Part shown: in pieces, positions 24,254 through 34,621 of the stretch | How the letters are laid out: every line of letters starts with the position of its first letter | Numbering within the stretch: position 1 is the stretch's first letter | Assembly: GCA_014381725.1 (NCBI GenBank) | Contig: JACNLC010000024.1 | Span: 1-35,601 of the forward strand | Length of the DNA stretch: 35,601 nucleotides | Reading direction: 5' to 3' | From: Fidelibacterota bacterium | GTDB taxonomy: Bacteria; Fidelibacterota; Marinisomatia; SCGC-AAA003-L08; JACNLC01 | Program-made: the position numbers and the translations under genes | Notes under the pieces: generated by a model | The model's database searches: none | Seen by the model: the letters and a program-made list of their open reading frames with translations, nothing else | Told to the model about the DNA's origin: nothing

Positions 24254-24867
24254 TTCTTATCTAGGGAAATGTTAAATTCAGTTAAATAAAGAGGATTAAC
24301 TGAATTTATATTCTCTTCTTTCAATTCGTAATATTTATTAATAGCTATTTCTCCAATCCATCTTGCAGATGGACAAATTTCGGTAAAATTCTCAGTCGTA
24401 ATATATTTTGAAATTCCGTAACCAAAAACAGGAATATTATTTAATTCACTTATTGAAATACACTTTGGGTCTGAATTTTCAGTATTTTTGAGAAATTTCT
24501 GAGTAAATACTAAATCCCTATGAGAATGAATAGCCACCCAATGTTCAGATTGCATTGTGATTTGTTTTTCCAAACTTTGTAATGTCGGGATAGGAATAAT
24601 TGGTAAGCTTGAAGCATACGCTAGTCCTTTTGCAAGACTCATTCCAATCCGTAATCCTGTATATGAACCAGGACCAGCAGATACTGCAATTCCATCTAAA
24701 TCATTAATTGACGATAATGAAGATTTAATAATATCATCAACAAATACAGGGAGTTTCTGAGAGTGAATTCTCGGTTCATTCGTTTCATTAATTTCTGCTA
24801 GTTTATCATCAATAAAAATTGCAACACTGCAAATATTTGTAGAAGTTTCCAACGCCAGAATATTCAT
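24250..24867 (-). CDS. tsaB: tRNA threonylcarbamoyladenosine biosynthesis protein TsaB
   Basis: A 205-residue ASKHA-fold protein, inactive partner of TsaD in the complex that installs t6A at position 37 of ANN-decoding tRNAs. Family signatures are the opening MNILALETSTNICSVAI and GIAVSAGPGSYTGLRIGMSL near residues 60-79. Length is slightly short compared with about 230 in E. coli, as is common in this group. It overlaps rimI by 4 bases and tsaE by 4 bases; tsaD and tsaC are not in the window. Confidence 0.94.
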   Translation of the reverse strand: MNILALETSTNICSVAIFIDDKLAEINETNEPRIHSQKLPVFVDDIIKSSLSSINDLDGIAVSAGPGSYTGLRIGMSLAKGLAYASSLPIIPIPTLQSLEKQITMQSEHWVAIHSHRDLVFTQKFLKNTENSDPKCISISELNNIPVFGYGISKYITTENFTEICPSARWIGEIAINKYYELKEENINSVNPLYLTEFNISLDKK

Positions 24868-25307
24868 ACTAATTCCTTTGTAGCTTTAGCAAGTTTGATG
24901 TTGTGATGATTTTTCCCAACATTCACAAACTCTATCACAATAATATTCGTAGGTAAAAGTTGAGAAATAAGTTCAGACCATTCGATAAAAACAACATTAT
25001 CAGAATTAAAGTACTCGCTAATTCCTAGTTGTAACCAACGGTGGATATTACTCTCTCGGTAGCAGTCGATATGAACTATCTTTGGTGTACATTCATATTC
25101 ATTAACCATAGTAAAAGTTGGAGAAGTTACTTCTCCAATATACCCAAGTCCTTTTGCTACACCCTTCATAAATGTAGTTTTCCCTGAAGCTAAATCTCCT
25201 TTGAGTGCAAATACATCCCCAGATTGAACAAACTTTGCTAGATTCTGCCCTAACACAATTGTTTCTTCTGGAGAATAAGTATCGTTACCAACCCAACCTG
25301 TAATCAT
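24864..25307 (-). CDS. tsaE: tRNA threonylcarbamoyladenosine biosynthesis ATPase TsaE
   Basis: A 147-residue P-loop ATPase that regulates the TsaB-TsaD complex in t6A synthesis. The Walker A motif is GDLASGKTT at 37-45 (Ala-Ser instead of the more frequent Gly-Ala), then the hallmark TSPTFTMVNEY and IHIDCYR-like HIDCYRES, and VVFIEWSE for Walker B. It overlaps the PorX-like gene by 4 bases and tsaB by 4 bases, indicating tight coupling of the regulator with the t6A genes. Confidence 0.94.
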   Translation of the reverse strand: MITGWVGNDTYSPEETIVLGQNLAKFVQSGDVFALKGDLASGKTTFMKGVAKGLGYIGEVTSPTFTMVNEYECTPKIVHIDCYRESNIHRWLQLGISEYFNSDNVVFIEWSELISQLLPTNIIVIEFVNVGKNHHNIKLAKATKELV

Positions 25308-26875
25308 TTTCTCTTTCCCTTTAGAATAGCAACTGGAACAATCATTTCTTCCATAGATATTCCTCCATGTTGAAAACTGTTTTGAAATCGCTTTACAAAA
25401 CGATGATAATCATTTGGATAAACGAAAAAATTATCATCTTTTGCTATAACAAAATTAGTAGTTAAATCATCTTTAGGAAGTCTAAATTCAGTTGGATTTT
25501 TTATAAACAAAGAGGTTTTTCCAGATACAGTTAAATTCCGTCCATGTTTGTATCGAACTCCAGTTGATGCTTGACGGTCTGCTTTCACATTAATTGGTTT
25601 ATTTACTCGAGTAGTTCCGTGATCGCTAGTAATAATTACGGTATGTCCCCAACTGCTGATTTCTTTCATAACATTTAATAACCAAGCATTTTCAAACCAA
25701 GAACAAACTGCTTTTCTGTATCCTGATTCATCTGGAACCATTTCTTTTAATACATCAGATTCAGAGCGAGTATGTCCTAGCATATCTACAAAATTTATGA
25801 CAATCGCCATTAAATCAGTATTTTTATAATCACTAATTCGGTTTTCTAATTTTTTCCCATCATTATAAGTAATTACTTTGAAATAGTTAACAGATTTATC
25901 AGATAGTTTTAACCGTTTCATCTGATCTTTCAAAAATGTTTCTTCAAAACGATTCATGCTTGTTTCATCTCGAGACATTTCATTCCAAAACTGTCCATAT
26001 TTTTTCTTGATTTCATAAGGATACAAGCCACTAAATATTGCATTTCTTGAGTATGGAGTTGCAGTAGGAAGAATTGATAAATATTGATCAGTTTCAACGG
26101 TATAGTATGGAAATAATAACTCAGTCATTGCTTTCCATTGATCCATTCTTAAACAATCAATTACAAAGAGAACTACTTTATTGTTATCTTCAAGAATTGG
26201 TTTTACAGTATTTTTAACAATATCTGGTGAAAATATGGGTTTATCATCTGAATTCATCCAATTCTTATAGTTAGATGATATGAATTGTGTAAAACTCCGA
26301 TTAGATTCAAGATACTGATCTTCGAGTATTTGCTTTAATCCTTGTTCTCCAAATTTATCAAAAGTAATTGACCAGTCTATAAGTTTATTATTGATTTTAT
26401 ACCAGTCTTCAATATCGTCAGCAATCATTACATCTGATCCGATTTTCTGAAATTCTTGTAGATAATCCTTGTATGCTCGTTCACTATGAATTTGTTCAGT
26501 TTCTAGTACATTTTTGCACGCGAGCAAAATTTGGCTCGGATTAACTGGTTTAGTTAAATAATTGGATATATGAGCACCAATTGCCTCATCCATCAACCAC
26601 TCTTCTTCATTTTTTGTAATCATTATAACAGGAAGACTTGAATGTTCTTCTTTAATCATTTTTAGAGTTGTCAAGCCATCAAGTCCATCCATCATTTCGT
26701 CTAATAATATTAGATCAAATTGATGTTGTTTGATTTGATGAAGGGCATCCTCTCCTGAATTGACTGGAGTAACATTGTATCCCTTCTTCTCAAGAAAAAG
26801 TATATGTGGTTTGAGTAGATCAATTTCATCATCGACCCACAGAATTTTTCCTCTTTTGTCCATATTATTATCCAT
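25304..26875 (-). CDS. porX: PorX-like response regulator with PglZ phosphatase domain
   Basis: A 523-residue two-part protein. Residues 8-125 are a receiver domain with acidic pair Asp15/Asp16, phosphoacceptor Asp59, Thr87 and Lys109, so it should be phosphorylatable. Residues about 230-523 are a PglZ domain of the alkaline phosphatase superfamily with every expected metal and nucleophile position visible: Asp240 (VIDCLR), Thr273 (ATPYSR), Asp364 and His368 (DMLGH), Asp418-His419 (TSDHG) and His503 (QHGGIS). In Bacteroidetes PorX works with the kinase PorY and controls the type IX secretion system; the PglZ domain cleaves nucleotide phosphodiesters. From memory, porX beside tsaE is also the Bacteroidetes order. 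No T9SS structural gene is in this window. A second start, Met5 at 26863, is possible. Confidence 0.92.
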   Translation of the reverse strand: MDNNMDKRGKILWVDDEIDLLKPHILFLEKKGYNVTPVNSGEDALHQIKQHQFDLILLDEMMDGLDGLTTLKMIKEEHSSLPVIMITKNEEEWLMDEAIGAHISNYLTKPVNPSQILLACKNVLETEQIHSERAYKDYLQEFQKIGSDVMIADDIEDWYKINNKLIDWSITFDKFGEQGLKQILEDQYLESNRSFTQFISSNYKNWMNSDDKPIFSPDIVKNTVKPILEDNNKVVLFVIDCLRMDQWKAMTELLFPYYTVETDQYLSILPTATPYSRNAIFSGLYPYEIKKKYGQFWNEMSRDETSMNRFEETFLKDQMKRLKLSDKSVNYFKVITYNDGKKLENRISDYKNTDLMAIVINFVDMLGHTRSESDVLKEMVPDESGYRKAVCSWFENAWLLNVMKEISSWGHTVIITSDHGTTRVNKPINVKADRQASTGVRYKHGRNLTVSGKTSLFIKNPTEFRLPKDDLTTNFVIAKDDNFFVYPNDYHRFVKRFQNSFQHGGISMEEMIVPVAILKGKRK

Positions 26876-26939: not shown

Positions 26940-29570
26940 TTACTTTGTAAATAGGATGAAAGTTCCGTCCCAATCTCTGTCTGGAGGGTTATTTTTAAGT
27001 TGGTTACATCTCTCAATGTACATTAAACTCGGATTAGTTGGACGATGTGGAAATTGCTCCTCCAATAAGGAACTTTTTTGGAATTTTGAGATGGCTTTAT
27101 CCCATTCTTGTTTTCTGTATAATTTAATACCTTCGTGGAATATGTCAACCATTTCTATTTTGTGCTTGGTTACTTGTCCTTTATATCCTAAAATTTCAAT
27201 TGTTTCCGTAGGTATTGCCTTACCAAGCAATTGAACTTTATCTGTTCGACGCCACTCGTACTTATCTTTACCGGCCATTTCAAGCGAATCTTCGGAACAA
27301 TGTATATAAACCCCATAGAATTTCGCAGCCATTTCAATTCTTGATGCTGTATTTACAACATCTCCCATCATCGTATAATTCATTCGTACCGCAGAACCCA
27401 TATTCCCGGTAACAATATTCCCTGAATTTACTCCAATTCGCATTCTCATTTGACTAACTAATTCAGGCCATTTCCCACTATTGGAAGCCCATTTTGCTCT
27501 AAGGCAATCTAGTGTATCCTGCATTTCTATTGCTGTATCAATTGCTTGCTTTGCATGGTCTTCCATTGGAATTGGCGCACCAAAAAACGCAACAATACCA
27601 TCTCCTTCATATTTATCCAAAGTACCTTTATGTTTTAGAAGTAAATTTGTCATTGGAGTAAAATATTCGTTTAACAACTCTACAAGCTCACTAGGATTTA
27701 ATGATTCTGAAAAAGTCGAGAATGACTGGATATCAGAGAAGAATGCAGTTCTAACACCTTCATCTCCTCCGAGCTTTGGCTCTCGTTTATCTTCATACAT
27801 TTGTTCAATTAGTTCAGGTGAAATGTAAGTCTCAAAAGTACCTTTAAGAAACTTCCTGTCTTTTTGAGACGAAACAAGAGAATACGCCAAGTTTAGTCCA
27901 TAAGTAACAAAAATAGACATTATTGGGAATACAACAGGTAGCATAATCGATTCACCCATTTCTGGTACATTAAATGCTAACTTCGAGAGCATCATTTCAA
28001 TCCAACTGTCAGGAAATATTTTAAAAGCAATCATTTTAAAAAACCATAAAAAGTCCTGCATAAAAGCACCTATTGCATACATAAACCAACCAACAATTTC
28101 AACTCCAACAATAATACTACTTATTGCTGTGTTCAAAAATGTTAAAACAAGAAAAGTAACAATTGAAAATAGAATAATAATTGAGATTTGACTAAATCTA
28201 CCCTCATGAGAATATGACAACGAATGCGTTGGTACAGAAATATAATTATGATCTAGTATTTGCTGAATAGCATTTGCGTGAATTTCAACTCCTGGCATTA
28301 AGCTCTCGTGACCTAAATAACTAAAATATGGTGTCGCTTTTACATCATGAATAACTTCTGTTGATAATCCAATTACAACTATTTTATCTTTAAAAGGACT
28401 GTTCTCTAATCCTCCAAAATCAGGTATATGATACAGAGGATAAGATGGATCAATAAAAATACTCATCCAATCAGTATCTTCCTCTTCTAATTGATATTCT
28501 GTATCATCCAAAACATTTGATAAAGGATATCTATCAAATGTCTTATACGAACTTCCAAATGGAGAGGCAATTGAAGTTGGACCGTAGTAATTTATTAAAA
28601 AAGTCGCTAATCGTCCATGAGTTTTAATAACCAAAGGTCCATAAGTAATTTTTTCATTTTCTAAATCGGGTATTGTTACACAACTATCTGGAATATCTAA
28701 GTATTCTTTTACAGCTTTTAATCCAAGTGACAGATATACTTTTGAAGGATCGTTATTTATTGTAGAATAAATTATGTATTCACGAGTTACAGCATCTTCA
28801 GATGCTTTAAATTCTCCAACCATTCCTGTTTCAGGACTGCTTTCCATTATTTTTTCTACAGGATACATAATATATTCTGGAGGAAGTCGTGTAGGTTCTT
28901 TAACTCTTTTGGCTCCAAAAACTACATCAGTTCCTTGATTTTGGGCATATTGGATGGCTTGCAAAAATAAATCATCACCATGCTCAAATGACTTAGGTAT
29001 TTCCTCATCTGCAAAACTTTTAATAACATGTTGTGACGAATGATCAGGTTTATCGAATTCGATATCAAACACAATTGTTTTAGTGCCAGCATCTGTTAAA
29101 TTACGAATTACTTTTGACCACAAAGTTCCTCTTGGATAAGGCCAAGCATCAGGGATTAATCGCCACGCTTCGTCGTCTAAATCAACAATAACAACATCCA
29201 TCCCTTTGTCCCAACGCCCATTCCCAGTATCTATAAACGGTTCATTGTCATCCCGAGAGGAATTCTTATTTATATCTTCATAGATTTCACCCATATCCCA
29301 TACTTTATTACCAACATCAACAAATTGTTCACCTTTATCGCAAATCCCATTTCCGTTATCATCTGTAAATCTTTCTGTTTTTTTTGGAATTCCATTATGT
29401 GCTAATGATCCAGATAGTGGACCTCGAAGCTTAAATTTGAAGTCATATATTTTGTGCTCAAGAAGGTTAAAAGCACCTACAATATATAGAAAGGAAACAA
29501 GAATCACTGACACTAAAGTCAGAATTAATCTTACAAGATAAGTCTTATGTTTTGATTGAACTGTAACCAT
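26940..29570 (-). CDS. CHASE2-domain class III adenylate cyclase with calcium-loop-like insert
   Basis: An 876-residue membrane sensor. Helix 1 (13-34) leads to an extracytoplasmic CHASE2 domain (about 40-445), then three helices (about 461-480, 484-503, 541-563) and a cytoplasmic class III cyclase domain (605-790). Catalytic residues are complete: metal-binding Asp613 (FSDIQSF) and Asp657 (GDGIVAFFG), ATP-selecting Lys653 and Asp737 (MGDVVNTASR), Asn740 and Arg744, so cAMP production is expected. A TPR-like helix pair (about 805-835) and the terminal DWDGT motif are known from this cyclase group. Residues 67-124 insert Asp/Asn/Gly-rich repeats (DDNGNGICDKGE; DINKNSSRDDNE; DTGNGRWDKG) that resemble calcium-binding loops. 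It overlaps the barrel gene by one base. Confidence 0.93.
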   Translation of the reverse strand: MVTVQSKHKTYLVRLILTLVSVILVSFLYIVGAFNLLEHKIYDFKFKLRGPLSGSLAHNGIPKKTERFTDDNGNGICDKGEQFVDVGNKVWDMGEIYEDINKNSSRDDNEPFIDTGNGRWDKGMDVVIVDLDDEAWRLIPDAWPYPRGTLWSKVIRNLTDAGTKTIVFDIEFDKPDHSSQHVIKSFADEEIPKSFEHGDDLFLQAIQYAQNQGTDVVFGAKRVKEPTRLPPEYIMYPVEKIMESSPETGMVGEFKASEDAVTREYIIYSTINNDPSKVYLSLGLKAVKEYLDIPDSCVTIPDLENEKITYGPLVIKTHGRLATFLINYYGPTSIASPFGSSYKTFDRYPLSNVLDDTEYQLEEEDTDWMSIFIDPSYPLYHIPDFGGLENSPFKDKIVVIGLSTEVIHDVKATPYFSYLGHESLMPGVEIHANAIQQILDHNYISVPTHSLSYSHEGRFSQISIIILFSIVTFLVLTFLNTAISSIIVGVEIVGWFMYAIGAFMQDFLWFFKMIAFKIFPDSWIEMMLSKLAFNVPEMGESIMLPVVFPIMSIFVTYGLNLAYSLVSSQKDRKFLKGTFETYISPELIEQMYEDKREPKLGGDEGVRTAFFSDIQSFSTFSESLNPSELVELLNEYFTPMTNLLLKHKGTLDKYEGDGIVAFFGAPIPMEDHAKQAIDTAIEMQDTLDCLRAKWASNSGKWPELVSQMRMRIGVNSGNIVTGNMGSAVRMNYTMMGDVVNTASRIEMAAKFYGVYIHCSEDSLEMAGKDKYEWRRTDKVQLLGKAIPTETIEILGYKGQVTKHKIEMVDIFHEGIKLYRKQEWDKAISKFQKSSLLEEQFPHRPTNPSLMYIERCNQLKNNPPDRDWDGTFILFTK

Positions 29571-32401
29571 TAGAATCTATAAGATAATTTTGCAGTAAAA
29601 TGGATGTTTTTGTAAATATCTTCTCCATCAACAATTTTGTAACGAAAATCTGAATCTGCTCTCACAATAAAATCTTCAAACAAATCTAATACAGCACCAG
29701 CTTTTATACTGTATTGAACGAAATCTGCAACTCCAGATCCAAATGAAACATTGACTCCACCCTTTATCTTTCCAGAAATCTTTGGCAATAAATAATAAAT
29801 CATCTCATCAATTACGAATAAATACTGTTCATCATAATAGTGAGGTCCTTTACTGAATGAGTTGAAGCTTGTACTAATAAACAAATTTGATTCCCAACTT
29901 TGATCGAATACTGAATGAAGATTAGCACTGAAAAACCTATTTGTTGATGCAGGTGAATAATAAGTAGAGTCAGACAAATCTCGTTCATCCTCATAAATAT
30001 CAACTTTATCTGATTTATAAATATTACAAGATATATTATGTGATATATCAAATAAGTTGAATTCGTTTGAAAACGACAAATTCATTCGTGAAGTCTTTGT
30101 GTTTTCCCTCAGATCACTAGTCATCAATGTATCTAAAGTATCTGCTATTGCTGATGTAATGTAAATAGTATCTATCTCAGATAATCCATTATTTCGAGTA
30201 TCCCAACCAACTGCAAAATTAAATGCTGGTAAGCCCCTTCCTGGATACATGTTAAAGCCAATATCAGTTCTGTTGGTTCTACCAACAATTCCATCATTCA
30301 GACTAACACCGTTGTCTGTTCCTTTCCACTTTACAAACAACAATCCTCTATTATGAAACAACCTTACCCTGTCAGAAAATGTCTGTTCGCGAATATCCTT
30401 TTCTAAATATGGATTTCCTAGAGTATTAAACTCAGGACCAATCTGACGATATCCCAGTTTAATAGAATGACCGAAGTAATTCAAGTTTAATTTTAGATGA
30501 TAAGCTAGTGATGGCATGTGCATTATTTCTGTAATTCCAATTTTCCCTGAGGAAATATCAATTGGTAGTAAAGGAACTTGATTAATATTCATGTGGAAAT
30601 ATTCTTCGTAATCTACAGGATCAAATGGTATATCATCTAAAGCAATTCCTTCTGAATCTACATTGGGTGAATAATAAGTAGTATCTCCATTTTCTACTGT
30701 GAAAGATGAATCGTTTATCCAAAATACATTCTCGTCTATATCAGAATAAGTTTGTCCAAGATATCCATCGTCAAATTCATCAAGCAAAGTGTCTAATCCT
30801 GGTTTGGATACAACAGGATCCCATATATTTTGGTTCAACAGACTAAAAGCAAACCCAGTATAAAATTTTGCTCTGTTATTGTCAAAATTAAACGATAAGT
30901 CTGAACCTACCACAATATTATCCTGTGGAGACATTCCATCCCAGTCTTTTGTTAATTGTTGATAGTCAAAACTTATAGAATCATCAAATATCTCATTGAA
31001 ATTTTTGATTAAGTTTGAATACTGTATATTATATGAAATGAAAATATTAGTAGAATCATCTGTTTCAAATTCTGTTGAATGAAAATAATTACTATATTCA
31101 ACGCTATCAACATATTCTGTCAACTCCCACGGTAGTTTGATTATAGCATCATTCAATGAGCTATAAACTGAAGGGATGTTATCCTTCGCTTTAAAAATGT
31201 TAACATTCCATTGAAAACGGTTTTTATACTTTAATCCAAGACTGGCAACTTTCGCATCTCTAGTGAATGTATAATCATCTCTTGAAATTGTTAACAAGTT
31301 AGATAAAGTATCAAAATCAGCTACCATTGCATCATCTTCCAAATCGCCCTGAATTACTCTTGCAATTTGTCCTTGTGCATAATTAACAAACAAGTAGTTA
31401 GAATCAAAATTAATTTGTGCTCCGCGCAAACGATATCCATTTACCATATATTCATTGATAACTGGATAAACATCTCCAAGTTTCAGATTGACAAAAGGGG
31501 TTCTGAATTCAAATGAATATCTATTTTTAGGTTGTAGTAATTCATTCTCAATGGAAGTTTGTTTAACTTTTAGTTTTATTTTTGCCCAATCCAAGTTCAT
31601 TCTATAGTTCAAATAAGCATTTTGTATTGATACAACTTCATCGTCTATCAATGCCTGTATTACATCTGTTGATACTTTTCCTGATTGGTTAAATGTATAT
31701 TCCTTCCGAGTTGTAAGTGCATCAGAAATAACTGTAAACTCCCAAAATATAGGTTGATATTCCATCCCAAAGATATTATTGTATGTTATCTTTATACGAT
31801 GATTACCTGATAGAATATCCTTAGGAATATATGTTAGCAGTTTTTTATCTAATGTTACTAGATCTGTAATATATTTATGATCTAATTTGACTTTAATACT
31901 ACTAAAGTCAATATTCTTCTCATTGAAAAATGAAACTGCAAGTAATAAATCTGTTTCGTTTATTTTTGAGTCAGGCTTTGGTGAGAGAATAATAGCTTTG
32001 GGTACTATCCTATCGTTCACAAAATTATACGCATCAACGGATTTTCCCTTAACTGACAATTGAACAGGATTGCTAAATGGATTATCAGAGGGATATGCAA
32101 CAGCACTTCCATCGGATAATTCGAAAATTATGCAATACTCAATGCCAGGTGCTGTTACAAAATTCTCTGGAATTTCACCTGAGTAAATATTTGACGATAC
32201 TGATGACATTCCAACTTGAAGGTATTCTGTATTGCCCTTTTTTCTGAAATATATTTTAGCACCAATAATATCTTTTGTAATTCTGCTTAACTCAGATTGT
32301 ATAAGATATGGAAATCCTGACAGAGCACTCTCACTTGGATTGTGATGAACTTCAAATCCAACACCCATTGAAACCAATAATAATAAGATTATATATCGCA
32401 A
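29570..32401 (-). CDS. Large predicted outer-membrane beta-barrel protein
   Basis: A 943-residue secreted protein with a signal peptide (about 1-16, MRYIILLLLVSMGVGF). Residues about 20-240 look like beta-sandwich domains (KIYFRKKGNTEYLQVGM; IKVKLDHKYIT), and from about 250 to the end come alternating amphipathic strands with many Tyr/Phe/Asn and long acidic loops; the protein ends LSYRF, with the terminal Phe typical of BAM-assembled barrels. I do not recognise a named family. It lies between the FecR gene and the CHASE2 cyclase gene, sharing a TAATG overlap with the latter, so it probably works with them. Possible roles are a ligand-sensing or adhesin barrel; these are guesses. Confidence 0.8.
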   Translation of the reverse strand: MRYIILLLLVSMGVGFEVHHNPSESALSGFPYLIQSELSRITKDIIGAKIYFRKKGNTEYLQVGMSSVSSNIYSGEIPENFVTAPGIEYCIIFELSDGSAVAYPSDNPFSNPVQLSVKGKSVDAYNFVNDRIVPKAIILSPKPDSKINETDLLLAVSFFNEKNIDFSSIKVKLDHKYITDLVTLDKKLLTYIPKDILSGNHRIKITYNNIFGMEYQPIFWEFTVISDALTTRKEYTFNQSGKVSTDVIQALIDDEVVSIQNAYLNYRMNLDWAKIKLKVKQTSIENELLQPKNRYSFEFRTPFVNLKLGDVYPVINEYMVNGYRLRGAQINFDSNYLFVNYAQGQIARVIQGDLEDDAMVADFDTLSNLLTISRDDYTFTRDAKVASLGLKYKNRFQWNVNIFKAKDNIPSVYSSLNDAIIKLPWELTEYVDSVEYSNYFHSTEFETDDSTNIFISYNIQYSNLIKNFNEIFDDSISFDYQQLTKDWDGMSPQDNIVVGSDLSFNFDNNRAKFYTGFAFSLLNQNIWDPVVSKPGLDTLLDEFDDGYLGQTYSDIDENVFWINDSSFTVENGDTTYYSPNVDSEGIALDDIPFDPVDYEEYFHMNINQVPLLPIDISSGKIGITEIMHMPSLAYHLKLNLNYFGHSIKLGYRQIGPEFNTLGNPYLEKDIREQTFSDRVRLFHNRGLLFVKWKGTDNGVSLNDGIVGRTNRTDIGFNMYPGRGLPAFNFAVGWDTRNNGLSEIDTIYITSAIADTLDTLMTSDLRENTKTSRMNLSFSNEFNLFDISHNISCNIYKSDKVDIYEDERDLSDSTYYSPASTNRFFSANLHSVFDQSWESNLFISTSFNSFSKGPHYYDEQYLFVIDEMIYYLLPKISGKIKGGVNVSFGSGVADFVQYSIKAGAVLDLFEDFIVRADSDFRYKIVDGEDIYKNIHFTAKLSYRF

Positions 32402-32428
32402 TGTGAATAGACCAAATTTAATTGAAAA

Positions 32429-33172
32429 TTATTTATATCGTATAATAATTTTTTTCTCTTCACCTGATTGATTTTGAAGTTTGATTTCTAATTCTCCCTC
32501 TGTATCAGTTGAATCATCAGTTTCTTGATTAGTTTCGCTATCCTGTTCAAAATCTTCTTCAAATTCTTCATCTGAATCACCTTCATTCATATCTAGAGGA
32601 ACTTCATTAGGTACTGTTGGTGCAATATCGATGGTTCCACTAGGAAGAGAAGTAGTTGTTATGTTTGCTTCCATCAATACAATATCACCTGAGATTAGAT
32701 TTCTAATTTCTACAATCCCTTCAAGTCCGAAAAATTGATCTCCGTCAATTTCATCTATATCAACCCAAAATTTAGTTCCTTTTACAGATGCAACAGAAGT
32801 AGGAGATACAATTGTAAATTGCCCTTTTTTCTGTTTTGGAATATTCAGTTTCATTTGACCATTTTTTATATTGATTTGTTTGATAATGCTGTTGCTGTCT
32901 GAATTTCCTTTTACAACTAGTTTTGTATCATTTTGTACTTTGACCATCGATTTATCATCGAGATAGACAAAAATTAAGTATCCATCGCTACCTGTTTGGA
33001 TTTCGTCATCAATAAATAGAGACGATCCTATTTGTAATCCTTGAGTCAATTTCTGTTCAGAATATTTCTTGTACTCAACCTTTCCGCTTGACTTAGTAAC
33101 AATTGCAACTTGATCGTTTGCAAATGTTAACATAAAGCAGAAAATCCAACCTAATATGTATAAATTTTTCAT
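32429..33172 (-). CDS. Secreted FecR-domain protein with acidic tail
   Basis: A 247-residue protein with a signal peptide (about 1-18, ending TFA before NDQVA). Residues about 22-160 form a FecR domain: GKVEYKK, QIGSSLFIDDEIQTGSDG, LDDKSMVKVQNDTKLVV and PTSVASVKGTKFWVDI are the typical strands. In iron-uptake systems FecR links an outer-membrane receptor to a sigma regulator, but stand-alone periplasmic FecR domains are common beside CHASE2 cyclases, as here. The rest is strongly acidic (GDSDEEFEEDFEQDSE and more), perhaps cation-binding, before a final basic KKIIIRYK. No transmembrane anchor follows the signal peptide. Confidence 0.85.
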   Translation of the reverse strand: MKNLYILGWIFCFMLTFANDQVAIVTKSSGKVEYKKYSEQKLTQGLQIGSSLFIDDEIQTGSDGYLIFVYLDDKSMVKVQNDTKLVVKGNSDSNSIIKQINIKNGQMKLNIPKQKKGQFTIVSPTSVASVKGTKFWVDIDEIDGDQFFGLEGIVEIRNLISGDIVLMEANITTTSLPSGTIDIAPTVPNEVPLDMNEGDSDEEFEEDFEQDSETNQETDDSTDTEGELEIKLQNQSGEEKKIIIRYK

Positions 33173-34320
33173 TATTCTACCTCCACATCAATTATTGTTA
33201 TATCACCAGTCTGGATCTGTGATAAAAATTCATACAATTGAGTAATCGGGATTTCCTCTCCATTCACTGTTATAGTATTCGTTGAAGAATAACCTGAGAG
33301 TTCTCCTCCTGAACCAAACAACTGATCATATTGTTGCTCACCTATAAGATCCCGTATTAATTCCTGGTTTGGGTCAAATGCCCCAGTAGGTTCGTCTAAA
33401 GAAATTATTTTGAATACATAAATATCACTTAAAATATCTTCAGTTCCTAAAGTTGTACCGTAAGAACGCTTAACCTGCCAAGCATATAATTTACCTTGTT
33501 CAAGTGAACTAGCATCAGAAACTGGATATTGAAAAGTTGTTGCATCCCCTGCGAGCGTGTAATATTCCTCATATTGTGATAATGGAAGAACAGACATATC
33601 ATTGATTGCTTCAGAAAGTGTTGAATGATTTTCTGGATTAAACTCACTAACTCTAATTCCGTACGAACAAGCTGAGCAATAATCAGCAGACCACTGAAAT
33701 ACTGGATATGTGGTGTAAATTGCAGTTACAGAAGTATCGGTTATTGTTCCTCCAGGTGTAACCAAATCTAAAAGAACTGGAGAGTAGATTTGTATATTTT
33801 CAATAATTTGGTCGTAAGTACCATTTTCACCAGATAGTATTATAGAAAATGAATAATTACCATCAGGCATTTTCCCAGATTCCATAATTGTATCTGAAAT
33901 TCCATCTATTACTTCTTGCGATGGGGTATTTATTTCGCTTGAGATAACTTCTATGCTAGGATAATTTGACAACGGATCATTTACATTTATATCCGTGCTT
34001 GAGAATTGTAAAACACTATTAAGACCTTTTATAACAACTTCTCCGGATAATAGTTCTTCTAAACTGTCAAACCCAAGCACTTGGGATTGAACTTTCAGAG
34101 AGAAATCTAAGGTTAATTCTTCATCAGAATTATAATCATCTGCTACTATGCTGTAGTAAAATAACTCAACATTAGATTGTCCAGTTGCTATATCAAAACT
34201 CCCAACATAAAATGTAACCAGGTTTGATTCGTTAAAATATCCTTCTAATTTGTAGTTATTGGGATTGTTGTCTGCGAAGATGCATCCAATTAAAGTTATT
34301 GTAGATAAAAGCCATTTCAT
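33172..34320 (-). CDS. Secreted beta-rich protein of unknown function
   Basis: A 382-residue protein with a short signal peptide (MKWLLSTITLIGCIFA, cleavage before DNNPN). A Cys lies at residue 13 but the context is not a convincing lipobox. The middle has a beta-sandwich-like domain containing YPVFQWSADYCSACSYGIRV and, later, LEQGKLYAWQVKRSYG, an arrangement of P-x-F-x-W then Y-x-W-x-V that recalls fibronectin-like modules found in secreted FCB proteins. The C-terminus is Gln/Glu-rich. It is the first gene of the four-gene module, has the best ribosome site there, and its TAA overlaps the ATG of the FecR gene. No named family recognised. Confidence 0.8.
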   Translation of the reverse strand: MKWLLSTITLIGCIFADNNPNNYKLEGYFNESNLVTFYVGSFDIATGQSNVELFYYSIVADDYNSDEELTLDFSLKVQSQVLGFDSLEELLSGEVVIKGLNSVLQFSSTDINVNDPLSNYPSIEVISSEINTPSQEVIDGISDTIMESGKMPDGNYSFSIILSGENGTYDQIIENIQIYSPVLLDLVTPGGTITDTSVTAIYTTYPVFQWSADYCSACSYGIRVSEFNPENHSTLSEAINDMSVLPLSQYEEYYTLAGDATTFQYPVSDASSLEQGKLYAWQVKRSYGTTLGTEDILSDIYVFKIISLDEPTGAFDPNQELIRDLIGEQQYDQLFGSGGELSGYSSTNTITVNGEEIPITQLYEFLSQIQTGDITIIDVEVE

Positions 34321-34411: not shown

Positions 34412-34440
34412 AAAAAAAGGGCTTCATTACTGAAGCCCTT
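34412..34440 (-). terminator. rRNA operon terminator
   Basis: A 10-base-pair perfect stem (AAGGGCTTCA with TGAAGCCCTT, loop of 4) followed on the minus strand by a run of seven T. It begins 6 bases past the 5S 3' end, closing the rRNA operon before the four-gene module. Confidence 0.92.
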
Positions 34441-34446
34441 CAAAAG

Positions 34447-34564
34447 TTACCGGCAACTACCTACTCTCCCACACTAGTCTCCCGTGCAGTACCATCGGCG
34501 TAATAGAGCTTAACTTCCGAGTTCGGAATGGGATCGGGTGTACCCTCTATGCTATAGCCACCGG
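34447..34564 (-). rRNA. rrf: 5S ribosomal RNA
   Basis: About 118 bases. The minus strand holds the conserved core CCGATCCCATTCCGAACTCG, then GAAGTTAAGC and GCCGATGGTACTGC, and the ends TCCGGTGGC and GTTGCCGGTAA pair as the terminal helix. It lies about 57 bases downstream of the 23S 3' end. Ends are estimated to within a few bases. Confidence 0.95.
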
Positions 34565-34621
34565 ATAAATTTATGTGAGAATTGCTATAAGATTGATGAA
34601 TTGTAGTTCTGAAAATTAATA

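Follow-up and report, generated by a model that had tools for sequence, protein, structure and literature searches.

The stretch of DNA analysed here (the window; 35,601 nucleotides) is contig JACNLC010000024.1 of assembly GCA_014381725.1, a 2.18-Mb genome of 88 contigs (among which it is labelled C6) from the phylum Neomarinimicrobiota (Fidelibacterota, formerly Marinimicrobia; FCB group). Calling of open reading frames (ORFs) identified four adjacent ORFs on the minus strand, spanning positions 34320 to 26940 and named here, in gene order, SEC, FECR, BAR and CYC (Table 1). Base 33172 was found to be common to SEC and FECR and base 29570 to BAR and CYC, with 27 bases separating FECR from BAR; these gaps look translationally coupled, and terminator-like sites within the set showed no excess over shuffle expectation. 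The set is flanked upstream by the genes for 23S and 5S ribosomal RNA (rRNA; Rfam) with the terminator of the latter, and downstream by porX, followed by tsaE, tsaB, rimI, accD and guaA. Pfam matches were obtained to FecR in FECR and to CHASE2 and Guanylate_cyc in CYC, while SEC and BAR matched no Pfam or NCBIfam family. A hydrophobic N-terminus was identified by a crude test in nearly all homologues of SEC, FECR and BAR. An earlier note on this DNA had described four overlapping or nearly touching genes between an rRNA terminator and a porX-like gene, three with signal peptides and the fourth with a big CHASE2 domain, and this description was borne out throughout.

Table 1. Features of the SEC-FECR-BAR-CYC locus and its flanks (positions in the window)
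Feature	Position	Strand	Basis
5S rRNA, conserved upstream neighbour	34448..34565	-	Rfam
Terminator-like hairpin and T run after 5S, separating the rRNA transcript from SEC	34416..34441	-	Intrinsic-terminator-like
SEC, 382-residue secreted protein: FN3/Ig-like beta domains and C-terminal helical part; no known family	33172..34320	-	ORF, AlphaFold
FECR, 247-residue periplasmic protein: signal peptide, FecR domain, acidic linker, C-terminal beta motif	32429..33172	-	ORF, Pfam
FecR domain (PF04773) of FECR	32753..33007	-	E=2.8e-10; 40.9 bits, cut-off 24
Conserved C-terminal motif of FECR, LEIKLQNQSGEEKKIIIRYK; phylum form ELRIxLEDxxGexKEliIxY	32432..32491	-	Homologue alignment
BAR, 943-residue outer-membrane beta-barrel, C-terminal Phe; no known family	29570..32401	-	ORF, AlphaFold (prediction)
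Two N-terminal Ig-like domains of BAR, predicted periplasmic	31697..32359	-	AlphaFold
Transmembrane barrel of BAR, roughly 26 strands	29573..31690	-	Count of DSSP elements in AlphaFold model
CYC, 876-residue CHASE2 receptor and class III adenylate/guanylate cyclase	26940..29570	-	ORF, Pfam
DxNxNGxxDxGE-type repeat insert of CYC, first membrane helix to CHASE2	29202..29372	-	Only some families
CHASE2 domain of CYC	28218..29207	-	PF05226, E=3.5e-33; 115.7 bits, cut-off 26.3
Class III cyclase catalytic domain of CYC	27219..27749	-	PF00211, E=6e-24
PorX (response regulator and PglZ-type phosphodiesterase), 64 bp after CYC	25304..26875	-	NF052313 (NCBIfam equivalog), 680 bits
TsaE, next in the conserved block, then TsaB, RimI, AccD	24864..25307	-	Pfam/NCBIfam

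Among 199 sampled genomes of the phylum, BAR was identified in 137 and CYC-like proteins in 168, the latter count including paralogues that match the catalytic part only. Re-annotation of 40 loci from diverse families with iterated profiles revealed the recurring order 23S-5S-SEC-FECR-BAR-CYC-PORX-TSAE-TSAB-(RIMI)-ACCD. A listed BAR lay directly upstream in 79 of 104 near-full-length CYC matches, and most of the remaining 25, once fetched, either proved to possess a BAR or were truncated where the contig stops, leaving L164, L165 and L176 (in G145, G152 and, as a second copy, G094) as real exceptions. SEC-FECR-BAR-CYC was complete in 63 of the 79 distinct CYC loci, covering 20 families, with most of the others ending at a contig edge; as loci were picked partly for holding BAR or CYC, these fractions measure linkage and not prevalence. 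PorX came next in 49 of the 63 complete loci (15 families). Median gaps were -1 bp for SEC-FECR, 34 bp for FECR-BAR, 9 bp for BAR-CYC, 64 bp for CYC-PORX and -4 bp for PORX-TSAE. The 5S rRNA was found upstream of SEC in at least 48 CYC-linked loci (median distance 156 bp), and of the 49 loci with an upstream 5S, 39 show a hairpin with a T run after it, so that rRNA and module are probably carried on separate transcripts.

The recurrence of this order across the phylum is far above chance. Co-occurrence of the four families in relatives, which the earlier note had set beforehand as one test of its proposal, was found, adjacent and in fixed order in 20 families, which suggests that the four genes probably serve one pathway. 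Conservation reaches beyond the four genes grouped in that note, to 23S-5S upstream and porX-tsaE-tsaB-rimI-accD downstream. CYC-linked BARs track family labels in a maximum-likelihood tree (quick mode), and inheritance of the module therefore looks vertical.

All 79 homologues share the six catalytic residues of CYC (D613, K653, D657, T733, N740 and R744), in which the base-contact position is occupied by Thr. The closest solved relatives of CYC were bacterial class III cyclases. CYC should make cyclic AMP (cAMP). In the families that have them, the repeats preceding CHASE2, placed after the first membrane helix, number between one or two and about ten units (expansions are seen in L074:4148-7534 and L137:4922-7906), and their motif has the look of a calcium-binding sequence. 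The source genome also encodes a CRP-like protein with cNMP_binding and HTH_Crp_2 domains (G000:C17; L195:3558-4247).

The AlphaFold model of BAR, built with 36 sequences, had a mean predicted local distance difference test (pLDDT) score of 83.2 and a predicted template modelling (pTM) score of 0.65, with two beta-sandwich domains at about residues 15-235 followed by long strands over residues 238-943. A signal peptide, amphipathic strands that close a barrel and a C-terminal aromatic residue were all found in this prediction, the final Phe being nearly invariant among the 36 homologues. None of these homologues matched a Pfam or NCBIfam family, TonB-receptor families included; a FecA-like TonB receptor was considered and rejected because of this and because the model is without a plug. 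In the PDB the model was matched best by large barrels, namely ushers, SlpA and MtrB of the Mtr complex, all at low template modelling (TM) score, the best of these by target-normalised TM being MtrB (0.46); these matches support a barrel fold for BAR and do not indicate a homologue. At the sequence level the sole PDB match was marginal and Ig-like, to the C-terminal region of the Porphyromonas peptidylarginine deiminase (E=0.0013). No plasmid-borne relatives of BAR were found, and a scan of genome contigs beyond the phylum gave Neomarinimicrobiota-type loci only, a few of which bear other names in NCBI but fall within the tree of this phylum. Because the patterns were drawn from class-level sequences and even members of the phylum escaped them when divergent, the scan does not establish the absence of BAR elsewhere. 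Two records named Gracilimonas and Flammeovirgaceae (L125, L154) carry a module that sits inside the Neomarinimicrobiota tree and are probably misnamed metagenome bins.

SEC, present as a single copy in the source genome, likewise remained without a Pfam or NCBIfam family when 31 homologues were scanned. Its model (pLDDT 82.6, pTM 0.58) displays FN3/Ig-like beta domains, for which comparison with the PDB returned generic FN3/Ig folds only, at low TM. In FECR, the C-terminal motif is retained even where the three upstream genes stand without a cyclase (see below) and is a good candidate for a docking element. Elsewhere in the source genome a 777-residue protein was identified (L194:4784-7117; G000:C13) in which a FecR domain 35% identical to that of FECR is joined to a long barrel-like C-terminus with a final Phe. 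Its barrel part has no detectable relation to BAR, and its gene adjoins an MscS-like gene. The fusion of both elements in one chain argues for contact between FecR domains and barrels.

Pairing of FecR-domain proteins with CHASE2 receptors has been described previously. In Campylobacterota, four-gene cAMP clusters place a CHASE2 class III cyclase beside a FecR-domain envelope protein and have been proposed to form one pathway (PMC9239204). The partners there are, however, a cAMP phosphodiesterase and a TPR protein, neither of which was found with Pfam among the four window genes, and horizontal transfer was inferred, whereas in the module described here a secreted beta protein and a large barrel are the partners, and inheritance beside rRNA and porX appears vertical. 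The Burkholderia BiofilmReg operon also has a secreted FecR-domain protein directly before a CHASE2 receptor, but its outputs are a histidine kinase and a response regulator, its FecR protein carries LysM, and it has no barrel (PMC5192318). In ferric citrate signalling (FecA-FecR-FecI), an outer-membrane barrel and a FecR domain report inward, and FecR of Escherichia coli is stated to meet the periplasmic part of the receptor FecA (PMC5498481). Unlike that system, BAR lacks a TonB plug and signalling domain, FECR is secreted and not an inner-membrane anti-sigma factor, and no extracytoplasmic function (ECF) sigma factor is present in the operon, the neighbours in relatives being CYC, PorX, TsaE, TsaB, RimI and AccD.

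Another parallel in principle is found in Sinorhizobium meliloti, where the outer-membrane barrel NsrA is needed to activate CHASE2 cyclases (CyaD1, CyaD2 and CyaK) acting through the CRP-family regulator Clr (PMC13001267); a CRP-family protein is likewise present in the source genome. A fixed SEC-FECR-BAR operon is not described for that pathway, and the likeness of BAR to NsrA is one of description. Eight CHASE2 cyclase loci of proteobacteria or Leptospira plasmids were sampled outside the phylum, and a FecR gene was annotated beside the cyclase in four (Shinella, Ruegeria, Rhizobium BG4 and S. meliloti) and detected by profile in a fifth (Rhizobium tropici), while such adjacency was not clearly seen in the Leptospira, Niveispirillum and Sphingobium loci. 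In the alphaproteobacterial pairs of Shinella (L183), Ruegeria (L184) and Rhizobium (L189), the FecR gene directly precedes the cyclase on the same strand, but no SEC or BAR homologue was found by profile; in Shinella a TPR protein with a sub-threshold outer-membrane-barrel match lies upstream instead. The Rhizobium sp. BG4 pair adjoins a gene on the opposite strand annotated as a Pycsar system effector (L189:682-1221). On the Sphingobium plasmid a CHAT-domain gene directly precedes the cyclase-profile match, with a heme:hemopexin-binding protein annotated further downstream (L188:1901-7035). Among the papers searched, none deals with adenylate cyclase in Marinimicrobia as such. The suggestion in the earlier note that the composition matches no described system stands for the SEC-FECR-BAR set with its two unnamed families, but not for the principle, since the pairing of FecR with CHASE2 and a barrel upstream of CHASE2 are both published; the FecR-CHASE2 cyclase theme is already known, and what is new here is the two families and the unusually stable location.

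The four genes probably constitute one operon for a cAMP relay from the envelope to the cytoplasm, and as part of the same overall explanation the module probably dates back to the ancestor of most Neomarinimicrobiota. In this scheme BAR, a large barrel that has no plug and carries two Ig-like domains in the periplasm, would be joined by FECR, soluble in the same compartment, and by the exported beta protein SEC to make up one outer-membrane and periplasmic unit. FECR would convey the condition of this unit (a bound ligand, a passing substrate, or the assembly or integrity of the barrel complex) to CHASE2 in CYC, and CHASE2 may in turn control the cytoplasmic class III cyclase, with the resulting cAMP acting through the CRP-type regulator encoded elsewhere in the genome. 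Signal flow would then run inward, with surface events driving cAMP. This relay is favoured because of the fixed order and coupled gaps of the complete loci, the invariance of all CYC catalytic residues, the CRP-like protein in the same genome, the FecR-barrel fusion, and the FecR-CHASE2 neighbours in other phyla together with the published systems cited above (PMC9239204, PMC5192318, PMC13001267).

Several observations weigh against such a relay. The FecR protein SMc02177 of S. meliloti is dispensable for signal perception (PMC5498481), and other class III cyclase genes of the source genome could supply cAMP. Furthermore, the trio SEC-FECR-BAR persists without an adjacent cyclase (L066, L097, L099, L111, L115, L116, L120, L122, L124 and L157; in some of them the mechanical choice of ORFs had hidden FECR behind an antisense ORF that overlaps it). 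In the BAR tree the cyclase-less trios formed two well-supported old paralogous clades, plus one secondary separation (L089) in which the trio stays beside rRNA after CYC has moved off to L165. The trio therefore does not need CYC adjacent; it is a unit in its own right with a function not requiring CYC, and it is at the rRNA locus that a cyclase is coupled to this unit. The single signalling system proposed in the earlier note accordingly finds support in the conserved co-occurrence and coupled gaps, but is qualified by the trio standing alone in these clades. One clade has long FECR proteins (522-698 residues, against about 230; e.g. L066, L097, L099), and the other has BARs without the first Ig-like domain. 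Genes following the cyclase-less trios are mutually unrelated (a fatty-acid hydroxylase, a receiver domain and others), and in one rRNA-linked trio whose cyclase has moved away a CsgG/LpoB-like gene follows (L126:6002-7396). The N-terminal domain of BAR was present in 67 of 68 proteins with a neighbouring CYC and in 6 of 12 without, one of those six (L062) having a CYC 882 bp away; this association was rejected as independent evidence, since about three changes on the tree suffice to account for the label.

Such autonomy of the trio would also be expected if SEC-FECR-BAR were mainly a machine for export or envelope assembly (for example of a polymer or a surface protein), with the cyclase recruited at the rRNA locus as a secondary monitor and cAMP reporting the activity of the machine and not an outside ligand. 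The two paralogous clades beside unrelated genes, the absence of a TonB plug in BAR, the conduits (MtrB, pilus ushers) among its best though weak PDB matches, and the CsgG/LpoB-like gene after BAR at L126 all point in this direction. However, no polymerase, ABC exporter or dedicated substrate gene was consistently found with the trio, SEC being its sole constant partner, and we regard an export machine as possible, though not the probable explanation.

The downstream neighbour, lying outside the four-gene set, is a bona fide PorX, the response regulator of the type IX secretion system (T9SS): it has the receiver, three-helix and PglZ arrangement and retains the phospho-acceptor and metal-site residues D59, D240, T273, D364, H368, D418, H419 and H503. 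The source genome also has 61 matches to the T9SS C-terminal domain. A link between cAMP and the T9SS is attractive but unproven. In its widest, and doubtful, form the trio would be an undescribed sensory or transport complex of the Neomarinimicrobiota outer membrane. In the ancestral form beside rRNA this complex would set cAMP levels by way of CHASE2 and, together with PorX, connect the condition of the surface with type IX secretion, while paralogous trios would have been freed for other outputs. It is unlikely that the module is simply a regulatory arm of the T9SS, in which BAR, FECR and CHASE2 pass envelope or secretion status to PorX-controlled secretion. Such an arm would agree with the position of PorX directly after the module in 49 loci, with the T9SS matches, with the streamlined family f4 (0.7-1.0 Mb genomes), in which BAR and CYC were not found and PorX-model matches were weak or none, and with the hydrolysis of cyclic and linear oligoadenylates by PorX of Porphyromonas gingivalis (PMC11320123). 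Against this, family f10 and part of family f23 have PorX but not the module, several genomes carry the two apart, the linkage of PorX to TsaE is tighter than that to CYC (median gaps above), and its pocket is thought to suit large substrates rather than cAMP (PMC11320123). A role of PorX as a cAMP phosphodiesterase is not supported by its published substrates.

That the four genes have little or no functional relation, and have stayed adjacent through vertical inheritance in a part of the genome, next to rRNA, that rearranges slowly, would fit a BAR tree that follows family labels and the retention of the housekeeping genes tsaE-tsaB-rimI-accD in the same block, but is highly improbable given that CYC-PORX is broken or lost in many genomes while SEC-FECR-BAR-CYC is intact, that gaps within the four are near zero, that the first three genes move as a unit and that FecR pairs with CHASE2 in other phyla.

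Little is known of what stimulates CHASE2 receptors, beside which FecR domains are repeatedly found. The fixed gene order, the two unnamed families and the natural variants identified here (presence or absence of the cyclase and of the first BAR domain, and variable repeat inserts in CYC) make the question of how an outer-membrane event may reach a CHASE2 cyclase testable. For this phylum of marine and subsurface bacteria, which is large and mostly uncultured, the relay would be a first defined signalling pathway.

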